A stretch of 33,997 nucleotides of DNA from a virus, in the IMG/VR virus record IMGVR_UViG_3300009104_000066, positions 1-33,997 of that record; one strand, given 5' to 3'. The notes below the pieces were generated by a model that ran no database searches, was not told the origin of the DNA, and saw only the letters and a program-made list of their open reading frames with translations. This document shows, in pieces, positions 3,604 through 31,100 of this stretch. Both the position numbers and the translations under genes were made by a program. Within the stretch, counting starts at the first letter, position 1. Each line of letters begins with the position of its first letter.

Positions 3604-5178
3604 ATGGAATATAATCAACCTAGCTTAATTGTTAAAGATTTAAATTTTGGCAATGATGCTAAAACAAAGGTAATTTTAGGTGTGGATAAACTAGCTAAGG
3701 CAGTCAAATCCACCCTAGGTGCCTCTGGGAAGTGTGTAATATACGAAGATGCCAGGGGCAAACCGGTGATAACAAAAGACGGGGTAACGGTAGCAGAATC
3801 CGTTGTCTTACTTGATCCGGTTGAAAATATGGGGGCTACATTAATAAAAGAAGCTGCTAATAATACAGTAAAAGAAGCCGGCGACGGAACAACTACTGCT
3901 ATAGTATTAGCAGAATCTTTATTGAAAAATATAGAAGAAGAAGGTGAGCATAATGTCTCAATAAGAGAAATTAAAGAAGGTGTCCAATCAGGGTTTAAAA
4001 AGGTAAAAAAATATCTTGATAAAACTAGTATTGAAGTTAAGGGCAATACTCTGAAACATGTTAGTACTATAAGCTGCAATAATGATAGTACATTAGGTAA
4101 TATTATAGCTGAAGCATATGAGAAAGTTGGAAAAGATGGTGTAGTTTTAATGGAAGAGTCGCAAGACGAAACAACATATACAGATATAGTAAATGGTGTA
4201 AAATTAGATTGTGGGCTAACATCACCACATTTAATTACAGATAAAGATAAACAACGCGCTGTGTTAGAAGAACCACGCGTATTAATTGTATCTTCACCTA
4301 TCCCTAATATACGTAAAATTCAAAATATACTAGAATTTATTATAAAAGGTAAAGTGCCTTTATTATTAGTAGCGGATGTTGATCAGCAAGTAAAATCTGC
4401 ACTACTAATGAATAAAGTAAAAGGAAATATTAATATAAATATTATAGATCCACCTGGTTTTGGTCCTAGCAAAAAAGATACAATAGAAGATCTTGCTTTA
4501 TTAACAGGGGCAAAAGTTATTAATGAAGAGTTAGGTGATGATTTAGAATTAATTGAACCAAGTTCTTTAGGTAGTGTTGAAAAAGCAGTTACAGATGATA
4601 ATTCAACTGTATTAACTTTATACAATACTAATAATAATGTGAAAGAGCGTATTAAAGATATTAATAACAAAATAAAGAAAGAAACAAAAAATCCTTTATT
4701 TAAAAAGAAATTACAACAACGATTAGCAATGTTATCAGGATCTGTTGGTATTATTAAAGTAGGTGCTGATTCTAAAGTAGAATTAAAAGAGAAGAAAGAT
4801 AGAGTTGAAGATGCTATCTATGCTACAAAAGCAGCGTTAAAAGAAGGTATTGTTCCTGGAGGTGGAATTGCTCTTTTAAACGCAGTTGATGAATTAAAAA
4901 TAGAAAATATTGGGGAGAAAATACTAGCAGAGGCCATAAAATCTCCATTTATTACTATAATGGCAAACGCAGGTATTGAAAACTACGAAATACCTACCAC
5001 CAAAGGTATTGGATTTAATGTAATTTCCGGGAATCAAGTTGATATGATTAAATCTGGAATCGTAGACCCCGTCTTAGTTACTAAAACTGCATTAAAAAAT
5101 GCGGTGAGTGTTGTTTCTACTATAGTTTCTGCTGGATGTGTAATTTCTAATGTAAGAGTAAATCATGAAAGCGGTTAA
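3604..5178 (+). CDS. groEL: Phage-encoded chaperonin GroEL
   Basis: This is a full-length group I chaperonin of 524 residues (E. coli GroEL has 548). The ATP-site signatures are present: TLGASGK at 37-43, TKDG with Asp59, GDGTTTA at 93-99 with Asp94, GGG at 419-421, and RVEDAIYAT with Asp403, equivalent by eye to E. coli Asp52, Asp87 and Asp398. The apical domain is recognisable (NIRKIQNIL at 235-243, PPGFG at 283-287) but some GroES/substrate-contact positions appear changed. There is no C-terminal GGM tail. It should form a ring that folds viral or host proteins, with capsid or fibre subunits the obvious clients. The downstream co-chaperonin gene overlaps by 14 nt. The 5' third is clearly more GC-rich than the rest. 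Confidence 0.95.
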   Translation: MEYNQPSLIVKDLNFGNDAKTKVILGVDKLAKAVKSTLGASGKCVIYEDARGKPVITKDGVTVAESVVLLDPVENMGATLIKEAANNTVKEAGDGTTTAIVLAESLLKNIEEEGEHNVSIREIKEGVQSGFKKVKKYLDKTSIEVKGNTLKHVSTISCNNDSTLGNIIAEAYEKVGKDGVVLMEESQDETTYTDIVNGVKLDCGLTSPHLITDKDKQRAVLEEPRVLIVSSPIPNIRKIQNILEFIIKGKVPLLLVADVDQQVKSALLMNKVKGNININIIDPPGFGPSKKDTIEDLALLTGAKVINEELGDDLELIEPSSLGSVEKAVTDDNSTVLTLYNTNNNVKERIKDINNKIKKETKNPLFKKKLQQRLAMLSGSVGIIKVGADSKVELKEKKDRVEDAIYATKAALKEGIVPGGGIALLNAVDELKIENIGEKILAEAIKSPFITIMANAGIENYEIPTTKGIGFNVISGNQVDMIKSGIVDPVLVTKTALKNAVSVVSTIVSAGCVISNVRVNHESG

Positions 5179-5422
5179 TTATTATATTGTTGTTGAGAAA
5201 ATTAAAGAACAACAAAAAGCGATAGAAGGATTAATTCTCACTGAAGATCTTGATACAGAAAATCGATTTGTTAGAGGTAAAATAATTACAGTTGGTAATT
5301 TAGTAGAGGGCCTTAACAGCGAAGATATTGTTTATTATGATAAAGCTACAGGTCATGGTATAACATGGAATGGAAAATTATACCATGTAATTAAAGTTGG
5401 TGATGTAGTTTTAGTAGAATGA
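5165..5422 (+). CDS. groES: Phage GroES-like co-chaperonin
   Basis: This 85-aa protein aligns along most of its length with GroES (about 97 aa in E. coli). It starts with a beta strand (YYIVVEKI), then has a mobile-loop-like segment EGLILTEDL whose LIL at 23-25 matches the GroES IVL contact tripeptide, then RGKIITVG, DIVYYD and a final VGDVVLVE strand. It is shorter in the roof region. It begins inside the groEL reading frame (14-nt overlap), so the two are probably translationally coupled in the order groEL-groES, the reverse of most bacterial operons. It should cap the phage GroEL ring, as T4 gp31 replaces host GroES. Confidence 0.85.
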   Translation: MKAVNYYIVVEKIKEQQKAIEGLILTEDLDTENRFVRGKIITVGNLVEGLNSEDIVYYDKATGHGITWNGKLYHVIKVGDVVLVE

Positions 5423-5861: not shown

Positions 5862-5966
5862 ATGCCAATAGTAAGCGGAAAAAAATATCCATATACAAAG
5901 AAAGGAAAAAGAGCAGCAGCAAAAGCAAAAAGAAAAGCTAAAAGAAAAGCAAGAAAAAAGAAATGA
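5862..5966 (+). CDS. 34-aa basic peptide
   Basis: This short ORF runs from ATG at 5862 to TGA at 5966. It starts MPIVSGKKYPYT and continues as an Ala/Lys/Arg repeat (AAAKAKRKAKRK). It fits tightly in the operon: two bases after the preceding stop and a 4-base ATGA overlap with the holin ATG at 5963. The gap between neighbours is otherwise unexplained, which supports it being a gene. Similar short GKKYPYT-type basic peptides occur in marine phages as I recall, with no known function; this was not checked. DNA or RNA binding is likely from charge alone. Confidence 0.7.
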   Translation: MPIVSGKKYPYTKKGKRAAAKAKRKAKRKARKKK

Positions 5967-6370
5967 GTAAAATATTAGCAAAAATATTCGGTAATGCCGG
6001 GGGTAGTGTATTACAAAAACTATCTGGTGTTGCTGATAAATTTATTACAACCGGTGATGAGAAAAGAGCGTTTCAAAAAGATATGGAACAAATCTTTCTT
6101 GACGCTGAGGCAGCAATGCAACAAAATGTAACAGAACGCTGGAAAGCCGACTTAGAACACGGTAACTGGCTAACAAGATCGGTACGTCCACTGGTCTTAA
6201 TCTTTTTAATTATATCTACTGTAATCATGGTGTTTATTGATAGTGGTTCAATAAACTTTAACGTGGAGCAAAAATGGACCGATCTTCTTCAACTGGTTTT
6301 AATGACTACGATCGGAGCGTATTTTGGCGGACGAAGCGTTGAAAAGTTCAATCAATTTAAAAAGAAATGA
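5963..6370 (+). CDS. Holin, three-TM gene-transfer-agent type
   Basis: This 135-aa protein has an amphipathic N-terminal half (FGNAGGSVL, then a charged helix at 31-66), the conserved-looking stretch NWLTRSVRPLVL at 68-79, a first membrane segment at 76-93 and a second at 107-123 ending in AYFGGRS. This order matches the phage/GTA 3TM holin family. It should permeabilise the inner membrane at lysis. No endolysin gene was recognised nearby. The start overlaps the preceding peptide stop (ATGA), and the stop is one base before the fibre gene at 6372. Confidence 0.8.
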   Translation: MSKILAKIFGNAGGSVLQKLSGVADKFITTGDEKRAFQKDMEQIFLDAEAAMQQNVTERWKADLEHGNWLTRSVRPLVLIFLIISTVIMVFIDSGSINFNVEQKWTDLLQLVLMTTIGAYFGGRSVEKFNQFKKK

Positions 6371-6371
6371 A

Positions 6372-7067
6372 ATGGCAAGAATTGGTAATTACAAACCAGA
6401 TACTGATGTAACAAAAGACGATAGGTTAATTGGTACCGATTCAGGTGGCACAACTAAAAACTATCGTTTAAATGATATATCAAAGTTTTTTAAAGAAACC
6501 AATGCTGCTGGTATAGCTGGACAATTCACATATCAATATAAAACATCTGGCTTAACTAATGGTAATATGGGTGTTACATTTTCTAGTGGATCAACTTTTC
6601 AAAACGTAACATCAGTAAAATTAAATAAATATGTTTACGGTGAGACGGACTCGTACGAAAACTTATTAAACATATTCGCTTCTAGTAAAATATTAGTAAT
6701 AGATGTAGAAGATCAAGATAACTACGGGGTATATAACACAACGACTGTAGCGCAAGATGGTTCATCAGATTTTTATGATATTACCATATCACAAGAAAAA
6801 GCTAATGGAACATTTACAAATGAAAAATTTTATGCAATAATATCTATTGGCGGTGGATCAGATAAACATTCAGCTTTCTCTGATTATTACGAAGTATCGC
6901 AAGCAACAAACCCATGGGTGATAACACATAATTTAAGTAAGTTTCCTTCTGTAACTGTTGTTAATAGAAACGGAGTAGAAGTTCATACCAAAGTAACCCA
7001 TGATAATAATAACAAAGTAACAATTACGTTTTCTGGCGATACTGCTGGTAAAGCGTATTTTAATTAA
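6372..7067 (+). CDS. Short tail fibre / virion protein, 231 aa
   Basis: The start is placed at 6372 (MARIGNYKPDTDVT); an in-frame ATG at 6324 would overlap the holin by 47 nt and add an unrelated tail. The N-terminal 40 residues, with NYKPDTDVT, LIGTD and NYRLNDISKFF, resemble the N-terminus of the fibre at 979, suggesting a shared attachment domain. The middle is beta-rich. The C-terminal 55 residues (NPWVITHNL, PSVTVVNRNG, VTITFSGDTAGKAYFN) form a common phage-fibre end domain. It lies between the holin and the next fibre, 11 bp upstream of it. Confidence 0.7.
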   Translation: MARIGNYKPDTDVTKDDRLIGTDSGGTTKNYRLNDISKFFKETNAAGIAGQFTYQYKTSGLTNGNMGVTFSSGSTFQNVTSVKLNKYVYGETDSYENLLNIFASSKILVIDVEDQDNYGVYNTTTVAQDGSSDFYDITISQEKANGTFTNEKFYAIISIGGGSDKHSAFSDYYEVSQATNPWVITHNLSKFPSVTVVNRNGVEVHTKVTHDNNNKVTITFSGDTAGKAYFN

Positions 7068-8738: not shown

Positions 8739-11700
8739 ATGGCAATACCATTTCTACATCCGATAGGGAATATAAACATATCTGACGGTACGCCTCAACT
8801 GAAGTTGACGGATACATCCTCTTCCGCCACGACGACTCTCACGCTCGATGGGGTCAATCTCACTTTACAAAATCTCGGAACAGACGGTGACTTTACTATT
8901 ATAGGTAAAGATGGGTCTAGTAATATAAATCTTCTTGCATTTGATACATCTGAGGGAGGTGCTGCGACTTTTGCAGGGGATGTTGCATTAACAGGAAGTG
9001 GTGATAAAATAATATCTGCAATTTCAAGCGATGATGATGCAACATTATTTTTAAGTGGAGCTGGTAGTGGGAAAGATGTACATATTGTTTATGGTAATGA
9101 TAGAGATTTGTTTATATCAAAATCGTCAAGTTCTACAGCTACAAGCGAGGGAACACCAGTTCTAACATTAGGGGGAAATTCTAACGCAACTTTTGCAGGA
9201 AATGTAATATCTAAAGATACTTTTTATTTAGAAAATGGTAGTGGAAATAGATGGCAAATGCTATTTGACACTAATGCTTTTAATTTAAGATATTATAATG
9301 GTAGTAGTTGGAGCGCAGATGCTTTTGCGATAGACACATCAAATAATGCAACTTTTGCAGGGAATATACTTTTAGATGGAACTAATCAAATTCATTTTGT
9401 GGCACAAAGTGGCGAAAGTAATACAGAAGCTATGAGAATCACTAGAAGTAGTGATAAAATGTATTTTACTTATGGAACAAACGCGGGGGATGAAGCATTT
9501 TATATAAATAGTGATGGTACAGTAAAATTTGAAGAAAATGCAACTTTTGCAGGTAGTGTTGGAATTAGTGGTGCTGATGCTAGTAGTTATAATGCAAACG
9601 GTGATAATTTAGTAATAGCCGGGTCAGGAAACGTTGGGATGACAATATCAAGTACAAACAGTAGTGATAGTAATGTATTCTTCGCTGACGGTACTAGTGG
9701 TGCTGATGCTTATAGAGGTATATTAAGATACACTCATGATGATAATGGTTTTGATTTTTATACTAATGCTACTCTTGCTCTAAACTTAGATTCATCACAA
9801 AATGCAACTTTTGAAGGGAATGTAACTATTGAAGGGAGTTTAGCATTAGGTGAAGCAGATACAGCATCTGGTCATATTAACGCTAAAGAGTTGATGACAT
9901 TTAATATTGATACAGATAATGATGATACTAATAGATATTTTGGTTGGTATACCAATGGTGCAGATGGTAGTGGTACTGAACTTTTAAAAATATTAGAAAC
10001 TGGTGATGCAACTTTTGCAGGATCAATTTTAGTAGGTGATTCAACTGCAGAAGCTGGTCATGGTATAGAAATACAAAAAGATGGTGGTGGAGCTTCTATA
10101 GGATTATTGATACATAACCAAGGAACCGACGCGGCGGATGATTCTAAAATTTCTTTTGAAACACAGGGTCAAAGAGATATTAGTATAGGAATAGATAGGA
10201 GTGATAGTTTCTTTAAAATATCCCATAGTGGTAGTTTAGGAACAAATGATTGGCAAACGTTTGATGGTTCTGGTAATGTAACTTTTGCAGGGGATATTGA
10301 ATTAGCTGACGGGCATAACACACTTACATTAACAAGAAATTTAGGAGCTGGTGTAGCGCCTGGAACAAGTTTAGGTTTTATACAATTTAATAACGATGCG
10401 TCAACAAGTTCAGATGATAGAGCCGCGATAATTGAAGGGGTTACAGATGGTGGTAGTGCTAATGCTACTGGTGGTAGTTTCAAATTTTGGACTAAAAAAC
10501 CAGCAGATGGTGTTAACGCTGTTGCATTAACTCTTGATTCATCACAAAATGCAACTTTTGAAGGGGATGTTAATGTTAAAAACGCTAGCACTAGAATTAT
10601 ATCTTTAAATTACGAAGACAGTATAAACAGTATTATATCACATAGTGGCACAAACTTTGGCTTAGAAAGTTTAAACGTAAGGGGTGATAATATTTATTTC
10701 TATACTGATTATGATAGTGGCACGCCAAAAGGTAATTTAACATTAACGTTAGACAGTAGTCACAATGCAACTTTTGCAGGTGATGTTAGTTTAGGAGCAA
10801 CAGATAAAGGTTCAAACACAACTCTTTCTTTATATACTAATGACACATATAAGACGACTGTAAAATATCAAGAAACAAGTGGATATTATGGATTTTCAAC
10901 AGAGTATGATGGTAATGGTAATGCTTTTACAATAAGAAGACATTCTAATAGTCAAGCGGGGGTAGCTGTTATGACTATGAATAGAGATGACGCAAATACA
11001 ACTTTTGAAGGTAACATTAATGGAAAAGGATATTTAAATCTTCAAAATGGTTATGGCAGCGCAAATGGTATATACTTATATGGTAATCCTGCTATGTATA
11101 GAGAGGATGTTAACACTTTGCATTTTCCATTAAATGTAGCAACTTTTGCAGGAAATGTTACCGCTTCATCTGGTACTGGTCATTTTTCCAATGTTAATTC
11201 TTCATCTTATCAACTAAATGGTACTTATGTGATGGATTCTAGTAGAAATTTAGTTAATATAGCTGCAATTACAACTACAGGTGCTGCAACTTTTGGAGGT
11301 GATGGAATTATAAACACTGCAAATAAAGCCTTAAAAGTTAGGTATTCTACAGGAAGTGCAAGTTATGAAGGAAGACTACGATGGGCAGGTTTACAACTAG
11401 GAAACAATGGTACTAATAGAATAGTAGCTGGAAATACTGTCGCTGGGGGTTCTTTAGCAATATATACAAACAATACTAATGATGGTTCTGATTATAATGT
11501 AACACCAGATGGAGCACATGCAGCTTCGTTTCAAGCAGATGGTGATACTATTTTACATCAAAACGTAGGTATAGGAACTTCAAGTCCAGGTGCAAAATTA
11601 AATGTATATACAGGTGGTAATAGTATTGCAGCAGCAGCAGTATTACAACATGATACTTTTGGGGCAGATAGAAAAGTTGGTTTAGGATTTGAATTAGGTA

Positions 11701-14700
11701 GTACGCAAATTAAAGCTGCTGTAGGTTTTATCTCAGATGACTCAAGCCCAGGAACATACGGTAGAGGAAATTTAATATTCTGTGTAGATAGTAATGATGA
11801 CAACGCACCAGTTGGACATGCTGATGAAAAACTTCGTATATCACACACTGGTACAGCAACTTTTACAGGGACAGTAAACGCAGCAGCACTTACTATAACA
11901 GCGGGTGCTGGTAAATTAGCTTTTGCTAACGATGCAGCTAATTATTATGCTTATCAAAAGGATGCATCGGATGGAATTGTAGTTTCAGGGTATTATGGAG
12001 TTTCATTAGCACACCGAGGTAATATGAAATTAGGTGTTGGTTCGGGTGGTATTAGTGTAACAGGAACACAATCTGTTTCTGGTGAGGCAACTTTTAATGG
12101 TAAACTAAAAATTTATACTGATGGTACATTAAATTGGGGAGCAGCTTATGACTATGGGAGATTAACTCACGACACTAATGTAGCAATAGTTGCTGGATTA
12201 TCTGGTAAAGCGCTTGTATTAAGGTCTAATGGCTCAGGAAGTAGCAATACAGCTTTAACATTAGATACATCTCAAAATGCAACTTTTGCAGGGAAAGTTT
12301 TTAGTAAACATAGAAAAGAATGTACTGCTAGTATTAGTAATTCTTATGTAAAAATATATCAGATATCTACAAATTCATCTCAAATGGCTTCGTTAGTAAG
12401 AATAACAGCGACAACACATGGAACTGGCCATGTTGCTGCTTGGACGGCTGATGTAATAGTTAACCACTATCAAGATGTAACTATAAAATCACATGGTGGA
12501 GAATATACACAAGGTACTATAAAAGTAGAGAGTAATAATAACGGGGAATATCATTTATCATTTAAATCTACTTCAGCTAACGCTTCTACATATTATTTTA
12601 CTATTGAGTCACTTTCTAGCGAACAAGATATAACAGTTAATCCTACAAGTACACCGGCTACTAATACAGTGCATGAACATGTTTTAAACTTTGGTACTAA
12701 TATAACTGGAGAAGGGGGTACTTTAAAGCATAATTTTGGAGGAACTGTAGATGGTACAGCGATAGGTGGTAATTCAACCGCATTAAGAGGAACTTCATTA
12801 ACTATAGATTCAAGATTAACTTTACATGATGGAGAAATAGATAATAATTCAGGGGATTTAACTTTAGATTCAGCAGGAGATATTATATTAGATGCAGGTG
12901 GTAATGAAATAAAATTAAAAACTGGTGGTTCAGAGTGGGGACAAATATATAATTCATCAAGTGATCTTGCAATTTATTCTTCTGTTTCTGACAAGGATAT
13001 AATATTTAAAGGCAATGATGGCGGTAGTTTAATTACCGCTTTAACATTAGACATGTCGGAAGGTGGAAATGCAACTTTTGCAGGTAGAGTTGGGGTGAAT
13101 GGTGCTCCAACTAATACGTTTTCAATAAAAGATGGTTCTAATGCTAATTTTGAAATGGGATGTAATTCAGATAGTGTATTTCTACAGTCATATAATAGAA
13201 CTAGTTCCGCTTGGGCAGGCATACAGTTTAATACCAATGGTGAAACAATGAGATTAACAGCTGATGGAAGATTGGGAATTGGAATCGCAACCCCACAAAC
13301 TCACCTTCAGGTTAACGGTACCCATTCTAATTTTAATGCACACATTGGTCAAGGTCAAGATAATGGTGATGGGCGTTGGGGAGGTATTTCACTAGGTTAT
13401 GCAGAAAACGGTAATGCTAATTATAGAAAAGTTGGTATTGTAGCAGAAGCACATGGTGACGGCGCTGCTAGACAAGATTTCCATATACTAGTAGATACTG
13501 CTAATGATGGTAATAGTGCTGTACTTGGTGATTCAAAGTTCAAAATTGATGGATTAACAGGTAATACAACTTTTGCAGGGAATGTTGGAATAGCTGGGAG
13601 TGCAGATTCGGTTTATTCCTTAGCGGTTAATTCTACCGATGAAGATGCTGTACAAATATATAATTCCACAGACGGATTAGATGCTTTAATCACATTCCAA
13701 AACCCAGGCGGAACTTTAGGTAGAATACAAGGACTTGATAACGGTGGATTAGGATTTGATACAGGGAATAATGCTGGTGGGATAAATTCTAATGTACTTC
13801 ATTTAGGTAACGGAGGAAATGCAACTTTTTCAGGTAGAGTAGTAACAGGAAACACAACAATAGGAAATTGGAGTAATTCAGATAGAATAGAAACAAGCGG
13901 TGATGAACTTACTTTAGGAACCCATAGCAACCATGATGTTATTATTAATAGACAAGCTAGTGCAGCTTTAACTTTCTCATCTGGCGCGGCAACTTTTGCA
14001 GGTGAAATTACTTCAGGTGACGATATGAACACGCCTACTAAACTTGTAGTTGGTGAAAGTGCAACAGCAGAGGTAAGAATTAAAAAGACAGATGCAGGGT
14101 ATGGTAAAGTTAGTTGGTATAATAATAATGGTAGTAGTGCTCAAGCTGCTTATATATCTTTAGCCTCTGATGAGCATTTATATTATTATCTTCCATCTAG
14201 TAAATCTCATATATTTTATGGTAGTGGTAGTGAAAGATTCAAAATAGGGGGTGATGTTGAAGTTACGGGATCAACTGATTTTGCAATTCCAACAGGTAGA
14301 AGAATTAAATTTGATGGTGCTGGTGGTCATACTTACATAATGGAAGAAGGTGACAACAATATGAAATTTTATGTTGGTGGTACCGAACACATGGCTGTAG
14401 GTGGTGGTGATGTATGGATTCAGCAACCAATGCGAATTACGCAGTATATTTATCATACAGGTGATCTTAGTACACAGATAAATATGGAAACTAGCCAGAT
14501 AACAATAGCAACATCTGGTGGATCTCATATACAAATAAATAATGATGAAAATATCTATTTCAGAACCAATGGTACTAATAGATTTAGAATGGATACGCAA
14601 GGTACATTTACCGCCACACAAGATATTATAGCTTACGGATCTGTTTCTGATAAATCATACAAAGAAAATATCAAACCAATAACTGGAGCATTAGATTTAG

Positions 14701-14957
14701 TTGGTAATCTTAAAGGCGTTACTTTTGATTGGAAAGAAGATACCGACACTAATAAAATGGTTGGTATAAAAGAAGATATAGGTTTTATAGCCCAAGATGT
14801 ACAAGAGGTATTACCAACGCTTGTAAGAGAAAATGAAGATGGAAAACTGTCTTTAAGAGACAAAGGTATAGTACCAGTATTAGTTGAAGCTATAAAAGAA
14901 TTAAAAGCAGAAGTAGAAGAACTAAAAAAACATAAATGCGATGGCTGTACCAAGTAG
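8739..14957 (+). CDS. Giant tail fibre with C-terminal peptidase S74 chaperone
   Basis: At 2072 aa this is the longest complete gene in the window. It opens MAIPFLHPIGNI like the protein at 7079, then runs through many beta-structured segments separated by about 19 copies of an ATFAGNV-type unit. One segment has VGIGTSSPGAKLNV, typical of phage fibre shafts. The last 110 residues are an intramolecular chaperone auto-processing domain (peptidase S74): SDKSYKENIKPI with Ser1970 and Lys1975 as the expected catalytic dyad, GFIAQDVQEVLP, then a coiled coil at the end. The chaperone should trimerise the fibre and then cut itself off. Bases 8781-8890 are much richer in GC than the rest. The last 17 nt overlap the next gene. 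Confidence 0.85.
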   Translation: MAIPFLHPIGNINISDGTPQLKLTDTSSSATTTLTLDGVNLTLQNLGTDGDFTIIGKDGSSNINLLAFDTSEGGAATFAGDVALTGSGDKIISAISSDDDATLFLSGAGSGKDVHIVYGNDRDLFISKSSSSTATSEGTPVLTLGGNSNATFAGNVISKDTFYLENGSGNRWQMLFDTNAFNLRYYNGSSWSADAFAIDTSNNATFAGNILLDGTNQIHFVAQSGESNTEAMRITRSSDKMYFTYGTNAGDEAFYINSDGTVKFEENATFAGSVGISGADASSYNANGDNLVIAGSGNVGMTISSTNSSDSNVFFADGTSGADAYRGILRYTHDDNGFDFYTNATLALNLDSSQNATFEGNVTIEGSLALGEADTASGHINAKELMTFNIDTDNDDTNRYFGWYTNGADGSGTELLKILETGDATFAGSILVGDSTAEAGHGIEIQKDGGGASIGLLIHNQGTDAADDSKISFETQGQRDISIGIDRSDSFFKISHSGSLGTNDWQTFDGSGNVTFAGDIELADGHNTLTLTRNLGAGVAPGTSLGFIQFNNDASTSSDDRAAIIEGVTDGGSANATGGSFKFWTKKPADGVNAVALTLDSSQNATFEGDVNVKNASTRIISLNYEDSINSIISHSGTNFGLESLNVRGDNIYFYTDYDSGTPKGNLTLTLDSSHNATFAGDVSLGATDKGSNTTLSLYTNDTYKTTVKYQETSGYYGFSTEYDGNGNAFTIRRHSNSQAGVAVMTMNRDDANTTFEGNINGKGYLNLQNGYGSANGIYLYGNPAMYREDVNTLHFPLNVATFAGNVTASSGTGHFSNVNSSSYQLNGTYVMDSSRNLVNIAAITTTGAATFGGDGIINTANKALKVRYSTGSASYEGRLRWAGLQLGNNGTNRIVAGNTVAGGSLAIYTNNTNDGSDYNVTPDGAHAASFQADGDTILHQNVGIGTSSPGAKLNVYTGGNSIAAAAVLQHDTFGADRKVGLGFELGSTQIKAAVGFISDDSSPGTYGRGNLIFCVDSNDDNAPVGHADEKLRISHTGTATFTGTVNAAALTITAGAGKLAFANDAANYYAYQKDASDGIVVSGYYGVSLAHRGNMKLGVGSGGISVTGTQSVSGEATFNGKLKIYTDGTLNWGAAYDYGRLTHDTNVAIVAGLSGKALVLRSNGSGSSNTALTLDTSQNATFAGKVFSKHRKECTASISNSYVKIYQISTNSSQMASLVRITATTHGTGHVAAWTADVIVNHYQDVTIKSHGGEYTQGTIKVESNNNGEYHLSFKSTSANASTYYFTIESLSSEQDITVNPTSTPATNTVHEHVLNFGTNITGEGGTLKHNFGGTVDGTAIGGNSTALRGTSLTIDSRLTLHDGEIDNNSGDLTLDSAGDIILDAGGNEIKLKTGGSEWGQIYNSSSDLAIYSSVSDKDIIFKGNDGGSLITALTLDMSEGGNATFAGRVGVNGAPTNTFSIKDGSNANFEMGCNSDSVFLQSYNRTSSAWAGIQFNTNGETMRLTADGRLGIGIATPQTHLQVNGTHSNFNAHIGQGQDNGDGRWGGISLGYAENGNANYRKVGIVAEAHGDGAARQDFHILVDTANDGNSAVLGDSKFKIDGLTGNTTFAGNVGIAGSADSVYSLAVNSTDEDAVQIYNSTDGLDALITFQNPGGTLGRIQGLDNGGLGFDTGNNAGGINSNVLHLGNGGNATFSGRVVTGNTTIGNWSNSDRIETSGDELTLGTHSNHDVIINRQASAALTFSSGAATFAGEITSGDDMNTPTKLVVGESATAEVRIKKTDAGYGKVSWYNNNGSSAQAAYISLASDEHLYYYLPSSKSHIFYGSGSERFKIGGDVEVTGSTDFAIPTGRRIKFDGAGGHTYIMEEGDNNMKFYVGGTEHMAVGGGDVWIQQPMRITQYIYHTGDLSTQINMETSQITIATSGGSHIQINNDENIYFRTNGTNRFRMDTQGTFTATQDIIAYGSVSDKSYKENIKPITGALDLVGNLKGVTFDWKEDTDTNKMVGIKEDIGFIAQDVQEVLPTLVRENEDGKLSLRDKGIVPVLVEAIKELKAEVEELKKHKCDGCTK
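8781..8890 (+). other. GC-rich island in the 5' end of the giant fibre gene
   Basis: By hand count this 110-bp stretch has 57 G or C bases (52%), whereas flanking DNA is strongly A/T-rich. Codons such as CTC, ACG, TCC and GCC cluster here and are rare elsewhere in the gene. The reading frame is unbroken. It could be a recently recombined segment joined to the MAIPFL anchor. Confidence 0.6.
8961..14000 (+). repeat. About 19 dispersed GCAACTTTTGCAGG repeats in the giant fibre
   Basis: A core close to GCAACTTTTGCAGG, encoding ATFAG, recurs near 8964, 9185, 9348, 9540, 9804, 10008, 10277, 10551, 10767, 10998, 11139, 11285, 11856, 12087, 12280, 13071, 13566, 13820 and 13989. Conservation is visible in the bases, not only the protein. 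A longer 30-bp identity occurs at 9789-9818 and 10536-10565. Spacing is irregular (about 140-800 bp), so each unit is a boundary between variable beta segments rather than a tandem repeat. Confidence 0.8.
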
Positions 14958-16791: not shown

Positions 16792-16993
16792 GATAAGTAT
16801 TGGTAAAGATTATAAAAATGAAGCTATGCACTACGCCGTTGGACAAGAAGTCTACGGCGGGCATACTATTTGTGATATAATAGAAGAAGATTCTAAATAC
16901 AGCATTTATATTAAAAAAAATAATGAGGTATTACCTTGGAAAGATTTTAATAAAAATATGGCTGTATCTATAGAATACAACTTAGAATATTAA
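16772..16993 (+). CDS. Hypothetical protein, 73 aa
   Basis: A small beta-rich protein (MGKLIRKISIG, YAVGQEVYGGHTI, YSIYIKKNNEVLPW) with no recognised domain; the pattern suggests a small beta barrel. It overlaps the preceding gene by 20 nt and its final A is the A of the next ATG, so all three are probably co-translated. It directly precedes the tandem GroES-like gene. Function unknown. Confidence 0.65.
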   Translation: MGKLIRKISIGKDYKNEAMHYAVGQEVYGGHTICDIIEEDSKYSIYIKKNNEVLPWKDFNKNMAVSIEYNLEY

Positions 16994-17592
16994 TGCGTGC
17001 ATTATATAATTTTATAGTTGAACCAATAGGGGAAAGGTATAATAATAAAAAACAAATTGGGGGTAAAGAATTAATATTAAACACAGAAGTGTTTAACCAT
17101 CAATATGTTAATAGAGAAGCTAAGATTATAGCTGTACCTAAATTACTTGATAATGATTTGCAAATTGGTGATACGGTTTTATTACATCACAATGTTTTTA
17201 GAAGATGGCATAATATGCGTGGCATAGAAAAAAACAGTAGAGGATTTATTAACGAAAACACTTATTCAGTAAATACTGACCAAATATACGCGTATAAAAG
17301 AAATGATAAATGGAACGCTTTAGATGGATATTGTTTTGTAAAACCAATTAAATCATACGATAAATTAAAAGTTGATAAAGAACAACCTTTAATTGGTATT
17401 ATTAAATATGTTGATAAAACTCTAAAAAATATAAAAGTCAATGATTTAGTGGGTTTTAGGCCAAGTAGTGAATTTGAATTTATTATTAATAACGAAAGAT
17501 TATATAGAGTATTAACAAAATTTATTACAATTAAATATGAATATCAAGGACAAGAAGAAGAATATAATCCAAGCTGGTTACAAAGCAGTTGA
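16993..17592 (+). CDS. Tandem (two-barrel) GroES-like protein, 199 aa
   Basis: Both halves resemble the Cpn10/GroES barrel. In the first (1-102), FIVEPIGE opens the fold, GGKELILNTE at 23-32 resembles a mobile loop with LIL at 27-29, then REAKIIAVP and IGDTVLLHHN match the GroES strands RGEVLAVG and VGDIVIFND. In the second (110-185), GYCFVKPI, IGIIKYV, VNDLVGFRPSSEFEFIINNERLYRVLTKFITIKYE matches the GroES C-terminal half, but no mobile loop is evident. A two-barrel co-chaperonin architecture is known in chloroplast Cpn20. It sits just upstream of the packaging genes, far from groEL. Sequence similarity is weak, so it might be a barrel protein with another role. Confidence 0.6.
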   Translation: MRALYNFIVEPIGERYNNKKQIGGKELILNTEVFNHQYVNREAKIIAVPKLLDNDLQIGDTVLLHHNVFRRWHNMRGIEKNSRGFINENTYSVNTDQIYAYKRNDKWNALDGYCFVKPIKSYDKLKVDKEQPLIGIIKYVDKTLKNIKVNDLVGFRPSSEFEFIINNERLYRVLTKFITIKYEYQGQEEEYNPSWLQSS

Positions 17593-17809
17593 TGAGTTAA
17601 TTAAAGTGGCGAAAGAAAAAATAGTTGATTCAGAAGATGATGTTTCTGCTGATAGATTAAAAAATGCGGCTGCTACAAAAAAGTTAGCTATATTTGATGC
17701 TTTTGAAATACTAAACAGAATTGAGGAAGAAAAAAATATATTAGAAGATAAACCAACTACTCAAAAAGAAAATACTTTTCAAGGGTTTGCTGAAAAGAGA
17801 TCTAAATAA
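17537..17809 (+). CDS. Helical protein upstream of terminase, 90 aa
   Basis: A largely helical, charged protein (AVDELIKVAKEKI, ADRLKNAAATKKLAIFDAFEILNRIEEEKNIL). Its place immediately before the large terminase, with its last base forming the A of the terminase ATG, makes a small-terminase or packaging-accessory role possible, but no DNA-binding motif is clear. It overlaps the upstream gene by 56 nt in the +1 frame, much longer than other overlaps in the window. The overlap might be real or the true start may lie further in. Confidence 0.6.
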   Translation: MNIKDKKKNIIQAGYKAVDELIKVAKEKIVDSEDDVSADRLKNAAATKKLAIFDAFEILNRIEEEKNILEDKPTTQKENTFQGFAEKRSK

Positions 17810-20031
17810 TGTACGAACAAACGTTATATAAAATTATTGAACCAGTAAGAATTAATACACTTAAACGGTTAAATAAGAGCAAGAAATGGAAATATGGTTA
17901 TAATAAAGAAAATGATATTATAGTCATAAGTAAAACAGGACAAATAGGTGAGATATATGAGATACAAAATCTTAAAATAGCTCTACCACCTACTACTAAA
18001 ATTTATAGCAGATCAAAAAAGAAAAAAGAACAATACTGGGAGCAGTTCGAATATCCAAAAGCATTGAAAAATGTTAAAACCATTTTTGATTGGAGAGATT
18101 ATCCCAATGAACATAAAGATAAATGGTTTGATTATATCAATGAGGAATTCAATCGTAGGGAAAATGGTTTTTGGTTTAATAATAATGGTAAGCCTACTTA
18201 CATTACCGGTACTCACTATATGTATCTTCAGTGGTCAAAAATTGATGTGGGTGCTCCTGAATTTAGAGAATCAAATAGATTATTCTATTTATTTTGGGAA
18301 GCTTGTAAAGCAGATAAACGTGCTTACGGAATATGTTATCTCAAAAATAGACGATCTGGTTTCTCGTTTATGGCAAGTGCGGAAACAGTTAACGCTGCTA
18401 CTATCTCGAGCGATTCAAGATTTGGGATATTATCAAAAACTGGTTGGGATGCTAAAAAGATGTTTACAGATAAGGTTGTACCAATATCTGTTAATTACCC
18501 GTTTTTCTTTAAACCGATTCAGGATGGTATGGATCGACCAAAAAGCGAACTTGCATATAGGGTCCCGGCTCAAAAGTTTACTAGAAAGAAACTACAGGTT
18601 AATGAGAAAATTGAAGAAATTGTAGGTTTAGATACAACCATTGATTGGAAAAACACTGGTGATAACAGTTATGACGGGGAAAAACTTAATTTACTAGTAC
18701 ATGATGAGAGTGGAAAATGGGAGAGACCTGATAATATACTAAACAATTGGAGAGTAACAAAAACATGCTTACGATTAGGTAGTAGGGTTATTGGTAAATG
18801 TATGATGGGTAGTACATCAAATGCATTAGATAAAGGTGGAGATAATTTTAAAAAATTATTTAGAGACTCTGACGTAACAAAAAGAAATAAAAATGGGCAA
18901 ACTAAATCTGGATTATATAGTTTGTTTATACCGATGGAATGGAATTATGAAGGATTTATGAATAGGTATGGTATGCCAGTTTTTGATACACCATCAGATC
19001 CAACATATGATTTCTATGGAGAATTAATCGATACTGGCGTTGTAGATCACTGGGAAAATGAAGTTGAAGGATTAAAAAATGATCCTGATGCTTTAAATGA
19101 ATTTTATAGACAATTTCCAAGATCTGAAGAACATGCTTTTAGAGACGAAACTAAAAATAGTATATTTAATCTAGCTAAAATATATGAGCAAATAGATTTT
19201 AATGAAGAAACAAGTAGTGAATCTCAAATAACCACTGGAAATTTTCAGTGGATTAATGGAGTAAAGGATACCCAGGTTATATTTTATCCAGATTTAAAAG
19301 GAAGGTTTAATGTATCTTGGGTACCACCTAAACATCTACAAAATAATATTATTGTTAAAAATGGTATTAAATATCCTGGTAATGAACACATGGGCGCTTT
19401 TGGTTGTGATAGTTATGATATATCAGGAACTGTTGATGGTAAAGGATCTAAAGGTGCTTTACATGGTTTAACTAAATTTAGCATGGAGGATACACCTCCA
19501 AATCATTTCTTTTTAGAATATATAGCTAGACCACAAACAGCAGAAATATTTTTTGAAGACATGCTTATGGCTTTACATTTTTACGGAATGCCATTATTAG
19601 CAGAAAATAATAAACCTCGATTGCTATATTATTTAAGAAGAAGAGGTTATAGAGGTTTTAGTATGAACAGACCTGATAAAATTTGGAATAAATTGTCTAT
19701 AGCGGAAAAAGAAATAGGTGGAATTCCAAACACAAGTGAGGATATAAAACAAGCACACGCCTCAGCGATTGAAATGTATATACAGGAACATGTTGGTATT
19801 AAACCCGATGGTTCACATGGAAACATATATTTTAATAAAACATTAAATGATTGGAGTAGATTTGATATAAATAAAAGAACAAAATTTGATGCAACAATAA
19901 GTTCCGGTTTAGCAATAATGGCTTGTAATAGACATTTATATAAACCAAATGCAAACATACAAAAAGAAAAAGTAAATATTAATATTGCTAAATATAAAAA
20001 CACTGGCAATAGATCACAAATTATAAAATAA
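17809..20031 (+). CDS. terL: Terminase large subunit
   Basis: This 740-aa protein has the order of a phage packaging motor. The ATPase domain has a deviant Walker A at about 178-187 (LKNRRSGFSF, lacking the GKT/S end), Walker B LNLLVHDE with Asp299 and catalytic Glu300, and a coupling motif GSTSNA at 334-339. The C-terminal RNase H-like nuclease is suggested by GAFGCDSYDISG with Asp534 and Asp537. It should cut concatemeric DNA and drive it through the portal encoded by the next gene, 2 nt downstream. It is longer than most TerL proteins (usually 450-650 aa), mainly through an extended N-terminus of about 170 residues. Confidence 0.85.
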   Translation: MYEQTLYKIIEPVRINTLKRLNKSKKWKYGYNKENDIIVISKTGQIGEIYEIQNLKIALPPTTKIYSRSKKKKEQYWEQFEYPKALKNVKTIFDWRDYPNEHKDKWFDYINEEFNRRENGFWFNNNGKPTYITGTHYMYLQWSKIDVGAPEFRESNRLFYLFWEACKADKRAYGICYLKNRRSGFSFMASAETVNAATISSDSRFGILSKTGWDAKKMFTDKVVPISVNYPFFFKPIQDGMDRPKSELAYRVPAQKFTRKKLQVNEKIEEIVGLDTTIDWKNTGDNSYDGEKLNLLVHDESGKWERPDNILNNWRVTKTCLRLGSRVIGKCMMGSTSNALDKGGDNFKKLFRDSDVTKRNKNGQTKSGLYSLFIPMEWNYEGFMNRYGMPVFDTPSDPTYDFYGELIDTGVVDHWENEVEGLKNDPDALNEFYRQFPRSEEHAFRDETKNSIFNLAKIYEQIDFNEETSSESQITTGNFQWINGVKDTQVIFYPDLKGRFNVSWVPPKHLQNNIIVKNGIKYPGNEHMGAFGCDSYDISGTVDGKGSKGALHGLTKFSMEDTPPNHFFLEYIARPQTAEIFFEDMLMALHFYGMPLLAENNKPRLLYYLRRRGYRGFSMNRPDKIWNKLSIAEKEIGGIPNTSEDIKQAHASAIEMYIQEHVGIKPDGSHGNIYFNKTLNDWSRFDINKRTKFDATISSGLAIMACNRHLYKPNANIQKEKVNINIAKYKNTGNRSQIIK

Positions 20032-20033
20032 AT

Positions 20034-22439
20034 ATGATAGATTCAACGACAAAAGGACATTTTCCAAGTCAAGTAGTTAGTGATGCAGAAAAACGTAGTT
20101 ACAAGTACGGTTTAAAAATAGCACAGGCTATTGAGCATGAATGGTTGGGACATAGAGGTAACACGAGTAGATTAAGAAGTAATCAAAATAATTTTCACAA
20201 ACTAAAACTTTATGCTAGAGGTGAACAATCTATCCAAAAATATAAAGATGAATTATCTATTAATGGTGATTTATCTTATCTTAATTTAGACTGGAAACCA
20301 GTACCTATTATACCTAAGTTTGTTGATATAGTTGTAAATGGTATAGCTGAAAGAACATATGATATAAAAGCATATTCGCAAGATCCACATGGTGTTAGTA
20401 AGAGAACAAATTATATGGAATCAATTTTACGTGATATGCAAACGAAAGATTTAAATGATTTTGCATCTCAGGCGTTTGGAATTGACTTGTATGAGAATGA
20501 TAAAGATAAATTACCAGGAGATGAAGAGGAATTAGCAATTCACATGCAACTTAATTATAAGCAAAGTATAGAACTAGCAGAAGAACAAGCTCTCAATACG
20601 TTATTAGATGGTAATAATTATGAATTAACAAGAAAACGTTTGTATTATGATTTAACAGTATTAGGTATTGGGGCTGTTAAAAATAATTTTACTACGTCAG
20701 AGGGTATTAAAGTAGAATATGTTGATCCAGCTAATTTAATATATTCACATACAGAATCACCATACTTTGATGATATATATTATGTTGGTGAAGTTAAAAG
20801 TCTTCCAATTAATGAACTGAAAAAACAATTTCCTGATTTAACAAATGAAGAATTATTAGAAATACAATCTAATGGTAATGGAATGAGGGAAAGTAGAGGA
20901 TTAGATAATACTGATGATAATATTGTTAGGGTTTTATATTTTAATTACAAAACATACATGAATGATGTATATAAAGTAAAGAAAACTATATCTGGCGCAT
21001 CAAAAATAATACCAAAAGATGATTCATTTAATCCCCCACAAGATGATGAAAGATTTAAAAAGCTATCTAAATCTATTGAAGTATTATATGATGGAGCATT
21101 AGTATTAGGTACTGAAAAGTTATTGAAATGGGAATTATCTAAAAATATGATAAGACCTAAGAGTGATTATACTAAAGTAAAAATGAACTATAGTATTGTT
21201 GCTCCAAGAATGTATAAAGGTAAAATAGAATCTTTAGTTGGTAGAATAACAGGGTTTGCTGACATGATTCAATTAACACATTTAAAATTACAGCAAGTAT
21301 TAGGTAAGATGGTACCTGATGGAGTATATTTAGACGCTGATGGTTTAGCTGAAATTGATCTTGGCAATGGAACTAATTATAATCCACAAGAAGCGCTCAA
21401 TATGTTTTTCCAAACTGGTAGTGTTATTGGTAGATCAATGACACAAGAAGGTGATATGAATCCAGGTAAAGTACCTATTCAAGAAATTGCCAGCAATAGT
21501 GGTGGTAATAAATTACAAAGTTTAATTGCTACATATAATTATTATCTCCAAATGATAAGAGATGTGACCGGATTGAATGAAGCTAGAGACGCTAGTACAC
21601 CGGATAAAAACGCATTAGTTGGTATTCAAAAACTTGCAGCTGCTAACAGTAATACAGCTACAAGACATATACTACAAGCTGGTTTATATTTAACTGCAGA
21701 AACCGCAGAGTGTTTATCATTAAGAATTTCTGATGTATTAGAATACTCTCCAACAAAAGATGCGTTTGTTCAAGCTATTGGTGCACATAATGTTGGAACA
21801 TTAGAAGAAATGAAAAATCTTCATTTGTATGATTTTGGTATATTTATTGAATTAGCACCTGATGAAGAAGAAAAACAATTACTTGAAAATAATATACAAG
21901 TTGCGTTATCAAAAGAAAATATAGAACTTGAAGATGCTATAGATATTAGAGAAATTAAAAATGTTAGATTAGCAAACCAGTTGTTAAAAATAAGAAGAGC
22001 TAAAAAAATAGATAAAGACCAACAGATTGCGCAGCAAAATATTCAAGCACAAGCAGAGGCAAACATGCAATCGCAACAAGCTGCTATTCAAGCTGAAACT
22101 CAAAAACAGCAAATATTAGCGCAGAATGAATTGCAACTTGAAGAAGGAAAAGCAGGGTTCGATATGCAAAAACTACAACAAGAAGCAACATTAAAGAAAG
22201 ACTTAATGAATCATGAATTTGAATTAAATATGCAGTTGAAACAAATGGAACTTGATACATTAAAGCAAAAAGAAACTAATAAGGAGGATAGAAAAGATGA
22301 AAGAACTAGAATTCAAGCATCTCAACAATCTGAATTAATAGAACAAAGAAATCAAAATTCACCACCTAAAAACTTTGAATCAAAAAACAATGATGTTTTA
22401 ACTGGTGATTTTGACCTGGGCATGTTTGAACCTAGGTAA
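20034..22439 (+). CDS. Portal protein
   Basis: This 801-aa protein follows terL directly and precedes the scaffold and capsid genes, the standard portal position. Its N-terminal half shows portal-like features: a helical clip/wing region, VPIIPKFVDIVVNGIAER and a segment reading VEYVDPANLIYS. The central region (DMIQLTHLKLQQVLGKM, RDVTGLNEARDAS) fits the crown and channel helices. The C-terminal 140 residues are a Gln/Glu/Lys-rich coiled coil (IAQQNIQAQAEANMQSQQ...), as in long podovirus portals. A dodecameric ring at the unique capsid vertex is expected. No catalytic motif applies. Confidence 0.8.
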   Translation: MIDSTTKGHFPSQVVSDAEKRSYKYGLKIAQAIEHEWLGHRGNTSRLRSNQNNFHKLKLYARGEQSIQKYKDELSINGDLSYLNLDWKPVPIIPKFVDIVVNGIAERTYDIKAYSQDPHGVSKRTNYMESILRDMQTKDLNDFASQAFGIDLYENDKDKLPGDEEELAIHMQLNYKQSIELAEEQALNTLLDGNNYELTRKRLYYDLTVLGIGAVKNNFTTSEGIKVEYVDPANLIYSHTESPYFDDIYYVGEVKSLPINELKKQFPDLTNEELLEIQSNGNGMRESRGLDNTDDNIVRVLYFNYKTYMNDVYKVKKTISGASKIIPKDDSFNPPQDDERFKKLSKSIEVLYDGALVLGTEKLLKWELSKNMIRPKSDYTKVKMNYSIVAPRMYKGKIESLVGRITGFADMIQLTHLKLQQVLGKMVPDGVYLDADGLAEIDLGNGTNYNPQEALNMFFQTGSVIGRSMTQEGDMNPGKVPIQEIASNSGGNKLQSLIATYNYYLQMIRDVTGLNEARDASTPDKNALVGIQKLAAANSNTATRHILQAGLYLTAETAECLSLRISDVLEYSPTKDAFVQAIGAHNVGTLEEMKNLHLYDFGIFIELAPDEEEKQLLENNIQVALSKENIELEDAIDIREIKNVRLANQLLKIRRAKKIDKDQQIAQQNIQAQAEANMQSQQAAIQAETQKQQILAQNELQLEEGKAGFDMQKLQQEATLKKDLMNHEFELNMQLKQMELDTLKQKETNKEDRKDERTRIQASQQSELIEQRNQNSPPKNFESKNNDVLTGDFDLGMFEPR

Positions 22440-28134: not shown

Positions 28135-31100
28135 ATGCCTGAATTAAAACATAACTTTATACAAGGTCGAATGAATAAAGATCTTGATGAGAGATTAGTA
28201 CCTAAAGGAGAATATAGAGATGCTATGAATATAGAAGTGGCTTCTTCTGAAGGGTCTGATGTTGGGTCAGTTCAAAATGTATTAGGCAATACAGTTCAAA
28301 GTACAAAAGATAATAGTCCATTATCTACATGGTCAAGTAATTATATTTCTAATCTTACAAACGTACAATGTATAGGTTCTATCTGTGATTATGAAAATAA
28401 CAAAATTTATTGGTTTATAACTAGTGACGAGGCTGATTGTATTGCTGAATATAATGAAGCAACAAAAGTTGTAGCACCAGTTTTAGTTGATGTATATACA
28501 ACCACATCAGTGGGTTCATCGTCTGAATCAAGTGGTACTTCACTTACAATAGCAGTTGCTAATGCAAATTTAAGAGTAGGTATGGTTGTATCTGGCCACG
28601 CTAATATTGTAGCGGGAACAAAAATAACAAATATTAATGGTACAACTATAACTGTAGATACAGCTTTTACAGATAATTTACCGGCAAATCATGATAGTTA
28701 TACATTTACAGGCGAAAGGGTATTAAACTTCAGTGTTGATTACAAGATAACAGGAGTTAATATTATAACTGGGGATAGAAAGGATGGATACGCTGCAAAC
28801 GACGCGTTGTTATTTTGGACAGATAACAGATCTGAACCAAAACAAATTAATATAACAAAATTTAAAGAAGATCATACAACTGCAGATTTTAATACAAACA
28901 CACAGATAAATGGTGTTGATGTAAAAGAGTCTGATATTACTGTTATAAAAAAATCTCCTTTAACAGCGCCAACATTAGCAATGTCTGCTACAAAACGAAC
29001 TGGAAATTTAGTTGGTACTGGAAACAACCCTGCTTTTTGCTCTTTTAATTTTTCAACTAATGTAGGACTTGGGGCATTAAAGCATGATGCAAACGCGCTA
29101 TTATCATCTATAACAACAAATTCATCTGACGCAACAACTAGTGTTAATGGTGTTGGAGTTGATTCTAGTGGATCTGCAGCTGGAACAGGCTTAAACTTAA
29201 ATGTAACAGTTGCTGGTGGTGCTGTAACAGCAATAACAGTTGTAGCTGCTAATGACGGGGAAAATTATAAATCTGGAGAGGTGATTAAAATTGATAATGC
29301 GGATATTGGAGGTTCAACTGACGTTGAAATAACGTTACAAGCTGATGATTTTATTGGAAACGAAACTTATAAACTTTACCAACCTGGAGATCAGTTAACA
29401 TTTGATTTTAATCCAATACCAAATTTTAGAGAAGGAGATGTAATTATTTTTTCTGGATCAAAAGAAGTTGATAATGTTACAGAAAAGTTTGATGTTAGGG
29501 TAAAAGTTGTTGAATTATTAAACGAAGCCCAGCAAATAATAGGAGAGATATTAAGTATAAGTAGTAAAGTACCAACTCAAAACGCTGATATTGTGTATGA
29601 GGTTGTTTTAGACGAGGGAGATCCATTATTTGAATTAAAATTTCCTAGGTTTGCATATAGATGGAAATATAAGGATGGACAATATTCTTGCTTTTCTCCA
29701 TTTTCTGAAATAGCATTTTTACCAGGTGAATTTGATTATGCGTCCACGGATGGGCATAATAAAAGTATGGTAAATACACTAAAAACATTAACAATAAATG
29801 GTTTTCAATCTCAACCTAATGATGTTGATGAAGTTGATATATTATATAAAGAATCAGATAGTACATTAGTTTACATTGTTGATACATTAAAGGATAATGA
29901 AACATCATTCACTTTAGAAAAAGAACTTTTTAAAGGTTTAGTAGAGGAAAATCAATTATTAAGACATTTTGATGCGATACCTAAAAAAGCAAAAGCACAA
30001 GAAGTTGTAGGTAGTAGAATTGTTTATGGTAATTATACACAAAACTACATGATGGATAAAAATAATTACCCTGAAATAATAATTACATCAACAAAATCAC
30101 CTTATAACCCTAGTCAATCTTTCGTTGGAGATGGTAGCACAAAAACATTTACATTAACAACGGGTTATTTTGCAACATTACCAGATCAAGTAGAAGATAT
30201 TAAAATTTATATAGATGAAGAGGAAACAACAGAAAACTTTTCATACGCGTCACCTGTTGTAACGTTCGAAACTGCACCCGCAGATAACAGTATTGTAAAA
30301 ATTGTAGATAATAAATTAAACAAACCACAGAAATCAATAAAAACATTAAGAACATATCAAGCTGGTGTTACTTATATGGATAAATACGGTAGAACATCTC
30401 CTGTTTTTACAAACCCTAAAGCTTCAGAGTATTTAGAGTTATCAAAATCCGAAGGTGTAAATTCATTTGAATTAGCATTAGCTAACTCACCACCTGATTG
30501 GGCAACACATTATAAGTTTTATATAAAAGAAGGTAGTAGTGAATATTATAATCTAATACTAGATAGGTTTTATATTGCTGAAGATGGTAATTTATGGTTA
30601 TCATTTCCATCGTCTGATAGAGATAAAATACAGAAAGGGGATTTTATTATATTAAAAAAAGAACACGATAGTGATTTACCCGTAACCAGTAATAATAAAT
30701 TTAAAACTCTAGACATAAAAAATTCAGCACCAGAATTTATAAAAAATAGAAAATTTGCAATAGCATCAGCAGGCGTTAAAACCAGAAGTAATGGAGTAGA
30801 TAAACCAAACATAGGCGCTGTATCTTTTCAGTTTGTTGGGCCAGGAGATGATGAGCATGAAAGTTTTGCGTCAGCTTTTACTGGCGATAGTTTTATTATT
30901 ATAAAACACGGTAGCAATACAAGTAAATTTTATCGTGTTGAGAATGGTGGTTTAACTGGTGATGATGATGGAAGTGGTGTTAGTAACAGCATATATAAAG
31001 TAACATTAGCAGAACCTTTATCTGAAAACGATAGTTTTTTAGATAATATTGATAGTAATAGTGAAGCGTTTACTATAAATGTTTACAATGATAGAGTAGA

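Follow-up and report, generated by a model that had tools for sequence, protein, structure and literature searches.

A reversed, overlapping groEL-groES pair and a tandem co-chaperonin gene in marine flavobacterial phages: a candidate three-part folding set

A groEL gene that runs into a groES gene on phage DNA raises the question of whether such a phage brings a whole folding machine instead of borrowing that of its host, and of what that machine consists and where it came from. Earlier papers have documented GroELs in phages, including the present group, and list 'cpn10' among the core genes of the Pervagoviridae (PMC5332604, PMC8776804). Part of the pair may also have been described by Marine et al. 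2017, a work on virioplankton chaperonins cited in PMC7185714. The data presented here suggest that some phages do bring a whole machine, and that the folding set has three parts rather than the two described in an earlier sequence-only reading of this DNA, which overlooked a tandem co-chaperonin.

The window, that is, the whole stretch of 33,997 bases that was analysed, is the IMG/VR virus record IMGVR_UViG_3300009104_000066. Its 3' end is open and it is therefore counted as a genome fragment; judged from relatives, the full genome is probably 60-75 kb. Going by the same relatives, the source is a marine tailed phage of Flavobacteriia, and Flavobacteriia are the host of every terminase relative whose host is known.

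Gene order and setting of the groEL-groES pair

The groEL gene (3604..5178, plus strand) has an ATG start and no internal stop, and encodes a group I chaperonin of 524 aa that lacks a GGM tail. The protein matches Pfam Cpn60_TCP1 over the full-length Cpn60 domain (E 1.2e-55, residues 30-516 on profile positions 1-488 of 490) and PHROG 5725, 'chaperonin groEL' (E 5.9e-135), and aligns end to end with solved GroELs in the PDB (E 1.4e-115). The groES gene (5165..5422, plus strand) encodes a single-domain co-chaperonin of 85 aa that matches Pfam Cpn10 over the curated cut-off (E 2.6e-6) and PHROG 3188 (E 9.4e-10), and its predicted fold matches GroES/Cpn10 and T4 gp31. The GroES mobile loop (5210..5254, plus strand, residues 16-30), in which GLILT replaces the GIVLT of E. 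coli, is the main low-confidence segment of the model, and a mobile loop with the hydrophobic triplet, G-[LIM]-x-hydrophobic, was found in 27/27 relatives. The two genes share 14 nt (5165..5178, plus strand, ATGAAAGCGGTTAA), an overlap that likely couples their translation.

A scan of viral contigs for GroEL gave at least 588 relatives. We kept 80 of them, about 68-76% identical to the window GroEL. In all 80, groES lies directly 3' of groEL, and the overlapping order is retained in 79. The overlap is 14 nt in 52 of these relatives, 17 nt in 22 and 20-31 nt in five; the remaining one (L080:2209-3936) has a groEL that runs straight into groES, the groES start and mobile loop being deleted. This single contig was considered as a GroEL-GroES fusion and dismissed as a deletion, either natural or an assembly error, and it is excluded from the evidence. 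As a control, 80 bacterial loci were found with an alignment of GroELs; groES was upstream in 71 of these, in most cases separated by a short gap, and in no locus was it downstream, while nine gave no groES. The difference between 80/80 viral and 0/80 bacterial loci with a downstream groES indicates that this reversed arrangement with its overlap is genuine and ancient and not due to chance, and the earlier description of an intact pair in reversed order with a 14-nt overlap is borne out by these counts and by the intact reading frames.

The same reading held that the pair is rare, and this could not be maintained. In addition to the 588 or more relatives, 266 phage records carry a GroEL match, though some of these are mislabelled bacterial DNA; a 2017 paper had already reported GroEL from this group of phages, and the adjacent order also occurs in Elemovirus and MW202828. 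The records of 'Acinetobacter phage MD-2021a' and Salmonella look bacterial, with cellular genes flanking groS-groL; they were rejected as phage GroELs and left out of the GroEL tree.

The pair had also been placed among fibre and lysis genes. PHROG searches did find tail-spike-like matches at 979-2715 and a holin at 5963-6370, so the neighbours were named correctly, but relatives with 8-10 kb of upstream sequence show small leftward genes giving way to rightward ones only a few genes ahead of groEL. This switch of strand just before groEL implies that the pair opens the rightward structural arm and does not lie deep among tail genes. Several other products of the window were noted. The 2,072-aa protein encoded at 8739-14957 ends in a C-terminal Peptidase_S74 endosialidase chaperone domain and is probably a giant self-processing tail fibre. 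In the product of 6324-7067, the C-terminal 60 residues match several PHROG families without assigned function, in each case at the C-terminal end, in the manner of a shared module. The 1,954-aa open-ended protein at 28135-33996 has a sub-threshold match to the C-terminal domain of the crAss-like phage muzzle protein (E 1.3e-4), a hint at a distant kinship with crAss-like phages.

Divergence and origin of the phage GroEL

Residues T30, D52, D87, T89-T91, D398 and D495 (E. coli numbering) are all intact in the window GroEL, in agreement with the earlier statement that the ATPase residues are preserved, and T30, D52, D87, D398 and D495 are kept in all 80 viral GroELs. Other positions have changed. 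P33-K34 is replaced by A-S in 80/80 viral GroELs. Established GroEL mutant work places the hydrophobic apical groove, which receives substrate and the GroES loop, at Y199, Y203, F204, L234, L237, L259, V263 and V264. This groove is altered in the viral GroELs: Y203H in 79/80, L234Q in 80/80, L259K in 79/80 and V264M in 80/80, together with replacement of V263/V264 by L/M and of Y199 by L, while L237 is kept and F204 mostly kept. This divergence of the lid-binding groove implies that the phage GroEL probably needs lids of its own. The ring-ring contacts K105, A109, R452 and V464, conserved in bacteria, vary freely in the 80 viral GroELs, and this erosion suggests that the phage GroEL may work as a single ring. 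Judged from its residues, the protein would be an active ATPase chamber adapted to its own lid.

As the GroEL, the GroES and the ATPase core are all plainly of bacterial type, an obvious source would be an ordinary bacterial groE operon, captured recently from a host and then rearranged. However, the closest bacterial GroELs are only about 42% identical to that of the window and are scattered across unrelated phyla. In a maximum-likelihood GroEL tree of 52 rows, the window GroEL belongs to a viral clade (support 100/100) whose stem measures 1.54 changes per site. All bacteria cluster apart from it, together with Immutovirus and some further phages (support 100/97); the branching order of the phage GroEL lineages is uncertain because of long branches. 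In this phylogeny, suggested earlier as a check, the protein falls within no bacterial genus and outside all sampled bacteria. The low identity and the supported viral clade therefore exclude a recent capture from the sampled bacteria, and the gene order common to 80/80 relatives also speaks against it, leaving this origin very improbable. The earlier proposal that the pair was acquired and reorganised by the phage applies to a distant ancestor, but the tree and the identities do not support it for the present phage.

A tandem co-chaperonin beside the terminase gene

The third gene of the set (16993..17592, plus strand) lies about 11.6 kb from groES, just upstream of the genes for the terminase large subunit (17809..20031, plus strand; PHROG 6681, E 8.8e-171) and the portal protein (20034..22439, plus strand; PHROG 6547, E 3.7e-143). 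The terminase gene is its fixed neighbour, in the identical order in annotated relatives. The 199-aa product is Cpn20-like and matches PHROG 13932 (E 4.7e-20), a family named co-chaperonin GroES. Sequence searches of Pfam and the PDB gave nothing significant for this protein, and no Pfam domain in its first half, so that its identification comes solely from predicted structure and orthologues. The model (mean pLDDT 73, pTM 0.67) has as its best PDB fold match Chlamydomonas Cpn20 (7ekq_R; full length, E 1.5e-5, TM 0.56), and it also matches the 200-aa 'chaperonin cpn10' of Cellulophaga phage phi18:3. In orthologues of the phi18:3 group, here called Baltivirus-like, the second half is a GroES (hhalign 98.3%, E 2.1e-14, score 78.2 vs a column-shuffle maximum of 14.9), and the first domains of the marine (window) and Baltivirus-like proteins are homologous (hhalign 98.3%). 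The first domain gives a weak sequence signal against GroES, just above shuffles (hhalign 12% and 10%), and a profile comparison of domain 1 with domain 2 gave no signal over shuffles. The protein is thus read as two Cpn10 domains head to tail, the second assigned by orthologue sequence and the first mainly by the predicted model. No paper on a tandem co-chaperonin in phages was found in a limited literature search.

A standard Cpn20 has a GroEL-binding mobile loop in each domain. The marine tandem protein has such a loop in domain 1 and none in domain 2 (51/51). The mobile-loop-like segment of domain 1 (17026..17112, plus strand, residues 12-40, containing GGKELILNTE) is poorly ordered in the model, has a fixed length, and carries a near-invariant L27-I28-x-N30-T31-E32 in 51 sequences. 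In domain 2 (17302..17589, plus strand) the loop is shortened to an 18-residue segment, P118-G135, that is without a hydrophobic triplet in 51/51 relatives of the marine lineage. The corresponding stretch in the Baltivirus-like group, which is mostly without GroEL, is 27-35 residues long and in most cases has the triplet. Since Callevirus has both a phage GroEL and a tandem protein with a longer second-domain segment, loop loss does not simply track GroEL. An FRRW/EKNSR insert is highly conserved in the tandem protein.

The tandem gene was absent from the 10-kb groEL flanks of some relatives, but distance or the ends of contigs proved to account for this. A search of the whole records found it in 26 of the 28 that lacked it in the flanks, the two exceptions being fragments of less than 12 kb. 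A second sample, drawn by terminase and so independent of GroEL, comprised 19 marine and 18 Baltivirus-like records. The tandem gene was present in 16 of the marine records, the contigs of the other three ending 300-380 bases upstream of the terminase gene; GroEL was present in seven, each with its own GroES, and most others are cut upstream. One marine record (G042) has 11 kb upstream of the tandem gene and gave no clear reading on groEL or groES. The Baltivirus-like records had the tandem gene in 18/18, a single GroES in 15/18 (three are cut upstream) and GroEL in 1/18. That sole groEL (G052, the record of L295, 6213-8032) has groES directly behind it, possibly a separate gain of the pair. 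The complete genomes of phi18:3 and phi13:2 encode the single and the tandem GroES and lack GroEL; Tenacibaculum phage Gundel_1 has neither co-chaperonin and no GroEL. No record clearly reaching both loci had the tandem gene without the single GroES. Although these counts come from related records and are not independent events, the joint presence of single and tandem GroES wherever both loci were reached indicates that the two co-chaperonins are the constant unit and that the phage GroEL is optional.

Possible modes of action and known systems

The reading we favour, and consider probable, is that GroEL, GroES and the Cpn20-like tandem GroES form a phage group I chaperonin set that folds virion proteins under both lids. 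GroEL would bind ATP and build a chamber of seven subunits, which would be capped by GroES and the tandem protein, perhaps jointly, as a plastid-like mixed lid of seven GroES-type domains; and the chamber would fold abundant or oversized virion proteins. Plastid Cpn20 and Cpn10 form functional hetero-oligomeric rings of seven GroES domains (PMC5780408), and this precedent, together with two kinds of lid subunit that always occur together, invites the mixed-lid reading by analogy. As each marine tandem chain has a single loop, a lid of this kind would contact GroEL at fewer than seven sites. For phi38:1, of the wider group, infected cells and virions have both yielded GroEL peptides (PMC13288928). 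The mixing of the two lids is itself put forward tentatively. Several points speak against the three-part reading: the GroES-likeness of domain 1 comes mainly from the model, the loop of domain 2 is missing in the marine lineage, the groES and tandem genes are not adjacent, and the chaperonins of phages EL, OBP and AR9 function without a co-chaperonin (PMC9598537).

The main rival is that the co-chaperonins act separately, with GroES serving the phage GroEL and the tandem protein assisting head assembly on its own, with either host or phage GroEL, as a gp31-like adaptor that would steer host GroEL to capsid or portal proteins. The presence of the tandem protein without a phage GroEL in phi18:3, phi13:2 and most Baltivirus-like records, where host GroEL must therefore be the partner, is in its favor, as is a gene beside those for terminase and portal and not beside groEL. 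However, phages without GroEL still keep the single GroES, which suggests that the lids work jointly, and the second-domain loop of this supposed adaptor has been lost in the marine lineage, so separate action appears rather unlikely. Next in rank, and less likely again, is that the tandem protein is a former co-chaperonin whose GroES folds now make up a head or packaging protein. The fixed position directly upstream of terminase and portal, the missing second-domain loop and the conserved insert would all fit such a role, but domain 1 retains its mobile-loop-like segment with the near-invariant LI(L)NTE, the protein always accompanies the single GroES, and the phi18:3 record flags neighbouring structural genes as detected by mass spectrometry and not the tandem gene. 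Returning to the three-part set, one possible history, advanced with some doubt, is that flavobacterial phages evolved a lid of two kinds of subunit independently of plastids. This lid would form one seven-domain ring, would in the marine lineage touch GroEL at fewer points than it has domains, and would be used on host GroEL (Baltivirus) or on an adapted phage GroEL for virion building.

Among known phage systems, T4 gp31 and RB49 CocO are phage co-chaperonins, and gp31 shares the fold predicted for the window GroES; gp31 works on host GroEL, whereas the window phage encodes its own GroEL and two co-chaperonins. The GroEL homologues of EL, OBP and AR9 possibly work as single rings, as may be the case here. 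In the window, unlike in those phages, groEL overlaps a groES with a conserved mobile loop, and a cognate GroES encoded in this way argues against co-chaperonin-independent working. Nishimura et al. 2017 (PMC5332604) reported GroEL in Flavobacteriaceae phage 'group 2', consisting of environmental genomes, and related it to Cellulophaga phage GroEL; this group very likely includes the window lineage, though the main text of that paper, in contrast to the pair described here, mentions GroES zero times.

The closest arrangements are those of Elemovirus, MW202828 (Manatee Spring), Callevirus (phi38:1, Calle) and Maribacter phage Panino, all of which encode GroEL and a single GroES and, ahead of the terminase gene as in the window, a tandem GroES. 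The tandem architecture is unmarked in their annotations, and their GroELs are only 35-41% identical to that of the window. In Elemovirus and MW202828 groEL and groES are adjacent and in the same order as in the window, if less tight, whereas groES comes first in Immutovirus and in Callevirus, in the latter within the replication module, and a small gene separates groEL from groES in Panino. The three-part set may serve as a marker for marine flavobacterial phages.

Outside phages, the likeness is to the chloroplast, where a two-domain head-to-tail GroES (Cpn20) is likewise found with a separate single-domain co-chaperonin (Cpn10). The tandem protein and Cpn20 share 15% identity, with no sign of descent, and the marine protein differs in having only one mobile loop; convergence is the likelier explanation. 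Tandem co-chaperonins have been regarded as exclusive to chloroplasts, and there is debate over how a seven-fold chamber accommodates a lid whose domain count is even (PMC5780408). The phages provide a natural set, with both lids but no GroEL in some and with one or two loops per tandem chain, that makes this question directly testable.
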